From the NCBI GenBank assembly GCA_009646425.1, contig WJBW01000003.1, positions 62,001 to 126,000 of the forward strand: a stretch of 64,000 bases of DNA, in the 5' to 3' direction. Both the position numbers and the translations under genes were made by a program. The stretch's first letter is position 1. The number at the start of each line of letters is the position of its first letter. Positions 23,915 through 27,079 of this stretch are shown here, piece after piece. Source of the stretch: Burkholderiales bacterium LSUCC0115. GTDB taxonomy: Bacteria; Pseudomonadota; Gammaproteobacteria; Burkholderiales; Burkholderiaceae_A. The notes beneath the pieces were generated by a model that saw nothing but the letters and a program-made list of their open reading frames with translations, did not search any database and was not told the origin of the DNA.

Positions 23915-23952
23915 AAAAAAACCCGCGATCCCTTTTGAGGGAGACCGCGGGT
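23915..23952 (-). terminator. Intrinsic terminator downstream of amtB
   Basis: On the minus strand CCCGCG plus TCCC pair with GGGA plus CGCGGG around a short A-rich loop, directly followed by seven T residues (the A-run at 23915-23921 on the plus strand). This is a classic rho-independent terminator that ends the porin-glnK-amtB transcript and insulates it from gshA. Confidence 0.85.
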
Positions 23953-24002
23953 CCAGGAGCGACCGGGAGGAGAGGCCGGTCTTAGGAGAACTTCAACTTC
24001 AA

Positions 24003-25379
24003 TTACATGTAGTAGGCCTTCTCACCGTGTGAGGTGATGTCCAGACCCTCACGCTCTTCTTCTTCGGTGACACGCAGACCCACCACCATGTCAACGATCT
24101 TGTAGGCGATCAGAGCGACCACTGCAGAGACCACCATGGTGATGATCACGCCTTCGGCCTGAATAGCGACCTGGCTGGCAATGGAGAAGTCGGGCTTGCC
24201 GGTACCGCCCAGACCAGGCGCAGTGAACACGCCGGTCAACAGGGCACCCAGGATGCCGCCGATGCCGTGGACACCGAAGACGTCCAGAGAGTCATCAGCG
24301 CCCAAGATTTTCTTCAGGCTGGAGACGGCCCACAGGCAGACCAGACCAGAGATGCCGCCGATGACGATGGCACCCATGATGCCGACCGAGCCACAGGCTG
24401 GGGTGATGGCCACCAGACCAGCCACGGCGCCTGAGGCTGCACCCAGCATCGAGGCTTTGCCACGGAACAGGGCTTCACCAGCAGACCAAGTCAGCACAGC
24501 AGCAGCGGTTGCGAACAGGGTGTTGGCAAAGGCCAGGGTTGCACCAGATGTGGCTTCCAGGTTGGATCCGGCGTTAAAGCCGAACCAGCCCACCCACAGC
24601 ATCGAAGCACCGATCATGGTCATGGTCAGGGAGTGCGGAGGCATGGGCTCTTTGCCGAAGCCAACGCGCTTGCCCAGCATGTAGGCGCCGACCAGGCCAG
24701 CCACACCAGCGTTGATGTGAACCACTGTGCCGCCAGCGAAGTCCAGAGCGCCTTTGCCCAGCAGGTAGCCACCAGGACCCCAGACCATGTGTGCAATGGG
24801 CAGGTAGCAGAAGGTGAACCAGAGCACCGAGAAGAGCAGAACGGCTGAGAACTTCACACGCTCAGCAAACGATCCCACGATCAGCGCACAGGTGATGCCT
24901 GCGAAGGTGCACTGGAAGGCGACAAAGATCATCTCGGGAATCTTGACCGTCGCCGTGAAGGTGTCGGCCAGTGAATCAGCGGTCACGCCAGCCAAGAAGA
25001 GCTTGGAGAAGCCACCAATGATCGGGCCACCTTCGGTGAAGGCCACGCTGTAGCCATAGACGGCCCACAGCACGCTGATGAGCGAGAAGACCACCATGAC
25101 CTGCATCAGAACGGACAACATGTTCTTGGTACGAACCAGGCCACCGTAGAACAGGGCCAGACCAGGAATGGCCATAAAGGTCACCAACAGGGTGGAGACC
25201 ATCATCCAGGCCACGTCGCCTTTAACGACTTCGACCTTTGGAGCTGCTGCTGCGGCCGTGGTTGCAACGGCTGCTGCTGCGTCGGGTGCTGCCTGGGCGA
25301 GGACAGGCAATGCGATGCCTGCTGCTGCCAGACCGAGTAGCCCTTTGAGGCCACTCGAGAGAAGAGAAGTGTGTTTCAT
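24003..25379 (-). CDS. amtB: Ammonium transporter AmtB
   Basis: Trimeric ammonium channel of the inner membrane. The 458-residue product has an N-terminal signal-like segment ending around VLAQAAP, an Ala-rich linker, and eleven predicted membrane helices. Family markers include FYGGLVRTKNMLSVLMQ, GSFAERVKF, DFAGGTVVHINAGVAGLVGA (pore His), GWFGFNAGSNL, and VFGVHGIGGILGALLTG (second pore His). The ATG at 25379 has GAGGA just upstream; a GTG four codons earlier is less likely. It lies 26 nt after glnK, and GlnK is expected to block AmtB when nitrogen is ample. Confidence 0.96.
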   Translation of the reverse strand: MKHTSLLSSGLKGLLGLAAAGIALPVLAQAAPDAAAAVATTAAAAAPKVEVVKGDVAWMMVSTLLVTFMAIPGLALFYGGLVRTKNMLSVLMQVMVVFSLISVLWAVYGYSVAFTEGGPIIGGFSKLFLAGVTADSLADTFTATVKIPEMIFVAFQCTFAGITCALIVGSFAERVKFSAVLLFSVLWFTFCYLPIAHMVWGPGGYLLGKGALDFAGGTVVHINAGVAGLVGAYMLGKRVGFGKEPMPPHSLTMTMIGASMLWVGWFGFNAGSNLEATSGATLAFANTLFATAAAVLTWSAGEALFRGKASMLGAASGAVAGLVAITPACGSVGIMGAIVIGGISGLVCLWAVSSLKKILGADDSLDVFGVHGIGGILGALLTGVFTAPGLGGTGKPDFSIASQVAIQAEGVIITMVVSAVVALIAYKIVDMVVGLRVTEEEEREGLDITSHGEKAYYM

Positions 25380-25405
25380 GATTGTCCTCACTGAATGGAT
25401 TGGGC

Positions 25406-26574
<1,169 letters not shown>

Positions 26575-26613
26575 TTGTTTAACTCCTGTAGAAGGTTGGG
26601 CTCCACACTAGTA

Positions 26614-26628
26614 GCGAAAGCCGTGCCA
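26614..26628 (-). promoter_or_regulatory. Candidate sigma-54 (-24/-12) promoter for porin-glnK-amtB
   Basis: The minus strand reads TGGCACGGCTTTCGC. The invariant GG and GC dinucleotides are exactly 10 nt apart, and TGGCACG matches the -24 consensus perfectly; the -12 part has TCGC for TTGC. Transcription would start near 26602, leaving a leader of about 28 nt that includes the CAGGAG ribosome-binding site. Confidence 0.75.
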
Positions 26629-26700
26629 ACTGTTTTGTGGGCAAAAACCCTGGTTTTCTGGGGTTGGCGAGCTTTTTGGTGCGCTGAATTGGTGATCTCT

Positions 26701-26715
26701 GCACCGCTATGGGGC
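26701..26715. promoter_or_regulatory. Possible second NtrC-binding site
   Basis: GCACC-N5-GGGGC differs by one base from the NtrC dyad GCACC-N5-GGTGC. Its centre lies about 106 bp upstream of the predicted sigma-54 start and 39 bp from the stronger site. A weaker related sequence is at 26681-26695. Confidence 0.45.
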
Positions 26716-26739
26716 GTGATCTGCCCGACTTCACACATG

Positions 26740-26754
26740 GCACCAAGTCGGTGC
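26740..26754. promoter_or_regulatory. Candidate NtrC-binding site (perfect dyad)
   Basis: GCACC-AAGTC-GGTGC is a perfect inverted repeat matching the enterobacterial NtrC site (GCACC-N5-GGTGC). Its centre is about 145 bp upstream of the predicted sigma-54 start, a usual enhancer distance. It points to nitrogen control of the porin-glnK-amtB operon. Confidence 0.65.
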
Positions 26755-26815
26755 GATGGTGGGGTTGATCCAAGCAGCCCCTTGAGATGACATCAGCCCG
26801 TGCTAAATTTCAGAC

Positions 26816-27079
26816 ATGCCCAAGTTCTCTATGCCCGAACTCCCCCCCGTCTTTGCGGACCTGCAAAAGAAGGTCGCTGACGTCATGGCGAGTGGCCCTG
26901 CCGCCGATGTGGAAAAGCACATGAAGCAGGCGCTCTCGGTGGCTCTGTCCAAACTGGACCTCGTCTCACGCGAGGAGTTTGAGCAGCAACAGCTGGCCTT
27001 GGCCCGCGCCCAGGCTCAGCTCAAGACGCTCGAGGCCCGCCTGGCAGAGCTTCAGTCGGCTGAACCTTCTAAGACCTAA
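26816..27079 (+). CDS. ubiK: UbiK/BMFP family ubiquinone biosynthesis accessory factor
   Basis: An 87-residue protein of the BMFP family (PF04380). UbiK in E. coli helps the soluble Ubi complex under aerobic conditions. The N-terminal half is an amphipathic helix (FADLQKKVADVMASGPAADV), and the C-terminal half (about 52-82) is a coiled coil with LVSREEFEQQQ and LARAQAQLKTLEARLAEL. The family block SKLDLVSREEFEQQ is well conserved. It is divergent from the porin operon, and comM follows 89 nt downstream. No ribosome-binding site is clear. Confidence 0.85.
   Translation: MPKFSMPELPPVFADLQKKVADVMASGPAADVEKHMKQALSVALSKLDLVSREEFEQQQLALARAQAQLKTLEARLAELQSAEPSKT

Follow-up and report, generated by a model that had tools for sequence, protein, structure and literature searches.

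The window analysed here, a stretch of 64,000 nucleotides (nt) from the genome of Burkholderiales bacterium LSUCC0115 (assembly GCA_009646425.1, contig WJBW01000003.1, positions 62,001 to 126,000), carries on its minus strand the genes torF, glnK and amtB, which encode a putative outer-membrane porin, a PII protein and an ammonium transporter. Very probably, this torF-glnK-amtB operon is driven under nitrogen limitation by an NtrC-activated sigma-54 promoter. The promoter, at 26614-26628, would drive the three genes leftwards. When nitrogen is limiting, phosphorylated NtrC would occupy two dyads approximately 105 and 144 bp upstream and loop to the closed sigma-54 holoenzyme, and the promoter would then open, giving joint production of the outer-membrane barrel, of GlnK as PII regulator and of AmtB, the ammonium channel of the inner membrane. 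TorF would pass small solutes across the outer membrane, a role suggested by its predicted fold alone.

The consensus patterns used in the scans for the sigma-54 element and the NtrC dyad are general background knowledge. The -24/-12 element, TGGCACGGCTTTCGC (26614-26628, minus strand), was read directly and recovered by the pattern scan; it has one mismatch relative to TGGCAC-N5-TTGC and an exact GG-N10-GC spacing when read from 26628 to 26614. Its -12 G is at 26615, 41 nt from the A of the torF ATG at 26574. With this G taken as -12, the dyad scan placed the centre of a perfect GCACC-N5-GGTGC dyad, GCACCAAGTCGGTGC (26740-26754, no strand assigned), at about -144 and that of a one-mismatch NtrC-like dyad, GCACCGCTATGGGGC (26701-26715, no strand assigned), at about -105. 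An earlier, sequence-only reading had described an element of exact spacing 40 nt before the porin ATG, with a perfect dyad about 145 bp and a one-mismatch copy about 106 bp upstream of the start, and the motifs are confirmed at the locus. Its comparison to E. coli glnA also held when that gene of strain MG1655 was put through the same scan as a positive control. The element in front of glnA (glnAp2), TGGCACAGATTTCGC, has the same -12 variant, TCGC, together with two dyads, a perfect one near -140 (at -139) and one with a single mismatch at -107; the genes downstream are different.

Neither in the window nor in the genome do the motif counts exceed chance; taken alone, they were rejected as proof of a promoter, and relatives were therefore tested instead. 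A non-random sample of 132 torF loci was assembled from the window locus, 21 other matches of a family search, 30 loci from an order search and the best 80 of a named collection. Three loci with a duplicate upstream region, three with less than 300 bp upstream and two without a start were dropped, leaving 124. In 111 of these, glnK was located downstream of torF on the same strand, with amtB present too in 104 of the 111. The sigma-54 element was sought 20-130 nt before the start codon and the dyad within 180 bp upstream of -12, with 50 dinucleotide shuffles as control and the upstream regions read backwards as a second control.

The conservation of the motifs in relatives, which the sequence-only reading had proposed as a check, was found in most of these operons. 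With at most one mismatch, the sigma-54 element was present in 93 of the 111 torF-glnK operons (shuffles: mean 0.5, maximum 3) and the dyad in 78 (mean 0.96, maximum 4); allowing two mismatches, the number of operons with the element increased to 109. Perfect dyads were found in 29 (mean 0.06, maximum 2), and element and dyad together, each with at most one mismatch, in 66 operons compared to 0 in the shuffles. Read backwards, the 111 upstream regions contained no sigma-54 element of at most one mismatch, four of at most two, and a single dyad of at most one. The TCGC at -12 of the window promoter was present in all 13 kept loci of the genera g1 and g2 of the same family. The dyads were most commonly positioned at -125 to -127, with a second cluster at -95 to -97, approximately three helical turns apart, and many deviate from both. 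Among the 13 kept torF loci without glnK, the sigma-54 element was found in two and the dyad in one. In Eoetvoesiella caeni (L128) and Azoarcus taiwanensis (L157), torF has no glnK downstream, yet a one-mismatch sigma-54 element.

The joint position of the motifs before the operon and their conservation are thus above chance. That the sigma-54 element and the dyads are chance motif matches would agree with window and genome counts no higher than chance; the motifs are, however, conserved before orthologous operons, and the probability left to this explanation is negligible.

Several observations weigh against an NtrC-activated sigma-54 promoter. Within the window, the sigma-54 pattern was found 92 times against 97 expected and the dyad pattern 51 times against 63 expected, both with at most two mismatches. 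Perfect dyads occupy four places in the genome compared to three for the pattern read backwards, which is no excess. The two dyads of the window are 39 bp apart, compared to 32 bp at E. coli glnA and 31 bp in several relatives. A dyad of at most one mismatch was missing in 33 of the 111 torF-glnK operons, and in genus g3, which belongs to the same family, only one of seven kept loci has a dyad even when two mismatches are allowed. A second sample, consisting of seven torF-glnK loci outside the 111 and taken from a phylum-wide draw, was scanned in the same way, and three of the seven lack the sigma-54 element even when two mismatches are tolerated. Three of these loci have the element at one mismatch or fewer and four at two or fewer, five carry a dyad at one or fewer, and one (L181) has neither motif. 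The promoter signal, weaker in this second sample, is thus regarded as common but not universal.

Five of the seven g3 loci had a sigma-54 element of at most one mismatch, one had two mismatches and one had three. A sigma-54-like element with one to three mismatches and no dyad of at most two mismatches was the pattern in L020, L022, L024, L026, L027 and L028. As the g3 dyads are mostly missing, the promoter may respond to another activator in that genus, or its sites may be degenerate.

The regulators assumed by an NtrC-activated promoter are encoded in the 1.84-Mb assembly of 16 contigs in which the window sits. A single PF04552 match (E 4.1e-63) identified rpoN, and one protein exceeded the curated cut-off for NtrC (TIGR01818, 627.5 bits in its main piece, cut-off 558.6). 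NtrC was above the cut-off in 16 of the 21 family genomes searched, several of which are incomplete. The genome also contains a second full-length NtrC-like protein of 417 bits, below the cut-off of 558.6. A genuine sigma-54 promoter served by another enhancer-binding protein, with the dyads secondary, could make use of this second protein, and the g3 operons, where the promoter persists and clear dyads are mostly absent, point in the same direction. The dyad is, however, of the NtrC type, perfect and placed nearly as in E. coli glnA; a dyad occurs in 78 of the 111 operons compared to 0.96 in shuffles; and a related operon in Herbaspirillum seropedicae is reported as NtrC-dependent. Another activator is accordingly considered improbable.

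That operon is nlmAglnKamtB (orf1glnKamtB), reported to be NtrC-dependent, with amtB::lacZ expression 21 times higher under nitrogen limitation (PMC3023670). It has the same order of membrane protein, glnK and amtB, and H. seropedicae belongs to the Burkholderiales, as do many of the named relatives. From the gene order we infer that NlmA would be a TorF barrel. For Paraburkholderia phymatum, one study reports a predicted RpoN box and RpoN dependence of amtB (PMC5979394), and another a 19.7-fold increase of amtB in nitrogen limitation by quantitative reverse-transcription PCR (PMC5748707). The PII-amtB pair of this species (Bphy_0256-0257) is thus similar in its RpoN-dependent amtB and its induction by nitrogen limitation, and differs in that the RpoN box is placed before the PII gene in the paper. 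In B. cenocepacia, a PII gene appears at -6.5 in a table of the NtrC regulon (PMC5491218). The core NtrC regulon given in a comparative study includes glnA, amtB, glnBK and ntrBC (PMC5343134), and PMC5648810 and PMC3916325 yielded nothing about this promoter. NtrC dependence and a nitrogen response of the window operon are inferred from relatives. The proposal of the earlier reading that the porin, glnK and amtB would be under nitrogen-starvation control is supported by the conservation of the motifs in most relatives tested, the presence of one RpoN and one NtrC above the cut-off, the glnA-like anatomy and the NtrC dependence in H. seropedicae.

On the far side of the dyads lies a divergent gene outside the operon (26816-27079, plus strand), identified by a family profile as PF04380 BMFP and presumably ubiK. 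The NtrC sites might serve mainly this gene, or both genes, given that 61 bp separate the end of the perfect dyad from the start codon of the divergent gene. The dyad spacing fits the leftward sigma-54 element, however, and no sigma-54-like match of at most two mismatches on the plus strand was listed between 26475 and 27524, where the single sigma-70-like match was at chance (1 found versus 1.2 expected). Moreover, tblastn with the window protein as query detected the divergent gene within 900 bp in 54 of the 124 kept loci. This explanation is regarded as even less probable than that of another activator, and activation of the leftward promoter by NtrC is retained.

The genes of the operon were assigned by family profiles, supplemented for torF by structure prediction. 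On the minus strand, torF (25798-26574, 258 amino acids) is followed by glnK (25406-25750, 114 amino acids) and amtB (24003-25391, 462 amino acids), with intergenic gaps of 47 and 14 bp. The T-loop of GlnK carries the tyrosine which we take to be the usual site of uridylylation. A scan of 23950-26850 for terminators and sigma-70 promoters found none above chance. Because the gaps are short and no terminator-like site was found, the three genes are likely to be transcribed together. Genes for glutamate-cysteine ligase and glutathione synthase come after amtB on the same strand. At two loci of the family (L018 and L025), the AmtB encoded after glnK is 31% identical to that of the window, whereas the other family loci in which amtB was observed reach 69-87%; these two thus have a divergent Amt at the same position of the operon.

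TorF scored above the curated cut-offs of TIGR02001 (129.7 bits, cut-off 47.15) and PF09694 (Gcw_chp; 122.1 bits, cut-off 24), the former being titled 'TorF family putative porin'. A structure was predicted with AlphaFold2 from 48 sequences, the window TorF and 47 of 61 usable relatives. The model has 12 strands, a mean predicted local distance difference test score (pLDDT) of 84.5 and a predicted template modelling score of 0.81; the signal-like residues 1-23 have a pLDDT below 50. Foldseek returned 926 matches in the PDB at E <=10, and the 50 listed were by title all outer-membrane barrels (NanC, OmpG, the Occ family, FapF and others), with template modelling scores (TM-scores) on the query ranging over 0.37-0.54 and sequence identities of 6-15%. 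The comparison with NanC, a 12-stranded outer-membrane porin, gave a TM-score of 0.51 on the query and 0.62 on the target, a root-mean-square deviation of 5.5 and 10% identity. TorF differs from NanC-type porins in having no sequence relative in the PDB, where nothing matched the TorF profile at E <=1. By its model, TorF is likely to be an outer-membrane barrel, and the designation as a porin is putative, based on the TIGR02001 family and the predicted 12-stranded barrel with modest TM-scores against solved porins.

The pairing of torF with glnK-amtB was also observed in another gene order. In a phylum-wide draw of 249 genomes, 131 contained a PF09694 match and 29 loci were read. The glnK gene was downstream of torF in seven of these, and amtB was instead upstream of torF in eight. 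Six of the eight were extended, and the five long enough to show glnK (L206, L207, L208, L210 and L211) all read glnK-amtB-torF, from which it follows that the pairing occurs in two gene orders. The five belong to one family (f83), of another class than that of the window. In each, a sigma-54-like element with one mismatch (TGGCCC-N5-TTGC) starts 83-89 nt ahead of the glnK match, against a mean of 0.02 of 5 for shuffled sequence; compared position by position, the upstream regions share no more than 25-47% identity. When the 330 bp preceding glnK at these five loci were scanned for dyads with up to two mismatches, a single one was found, at -322 in L211.

Control of such operons is already known from relatives, and the arrangement is common in the order of the window, the host being a betaproteobacterium with a small genome. 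Less is documented about the link between an outer-membrane barrel and glnK-amtB; in the open-licence literature, no paper joining TorF with glnK and amtB was found. The present results support a predicted outer-membrane barrel as part of the nitrogen-starvation response across much of the order sampled. They raise the question of whether scarce ammonium or another nitrogen source would need an outer-membrane channel of its own. One tentative answer, somewhat doubtful at present, is that TorF is a dedicated outer-membrane partner of AmtB, and that the operon would encode both a sensor and a complete path across the envelope for ammonium, or for some other poor nitrogen source. The occurrence of the pairing in both torF-glnK-amtB, as in the window, and glnK-amtB-torF, each with a sigma-54-like element in front, is consistent with this possibility.

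The perfect dyad at 26740-26754 is one of the four such places in the assembly. The sigma-54-like pattern TGGCAYR-N6-GCW was counted at 50 places in the genome versus 22 for its reversed control. Three of the four dyads are upstream of one of these 50 places, namely before this operon, an ATP-grasp gene and an NMT1-like gene, and the fourth dyad, inside an open reading frame, may be a chance match. The NMT1-like binding-protein gene has a perfect dyad and a sigma-54-like match upstream. The glnA of this genome has a two-mismatch sigma-54 element and three two-mismatch dyads upstream.

Circularly permuted ATP-grasp genes are often found beside transglutaminase-like genes. For the gene of this type in the genome, a sigma-54 element with one mismatch and a perfect NtrC-like dyad (L093:1422-1515) precede a likely internal start; the element falls inside the longest reading of the frame, with a start codon further down. 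The NtrC regulon table of B. cenocepacia that lists the PII gene also contains transglutaminase-like genes (PMC5491218). Finally, the upstream region of L152, from a record titled as a metagenome-assembled genome of Bordetella parapertussis, is the same as that of a genome of the genus of the window (G001), and the species label is probably wrong.
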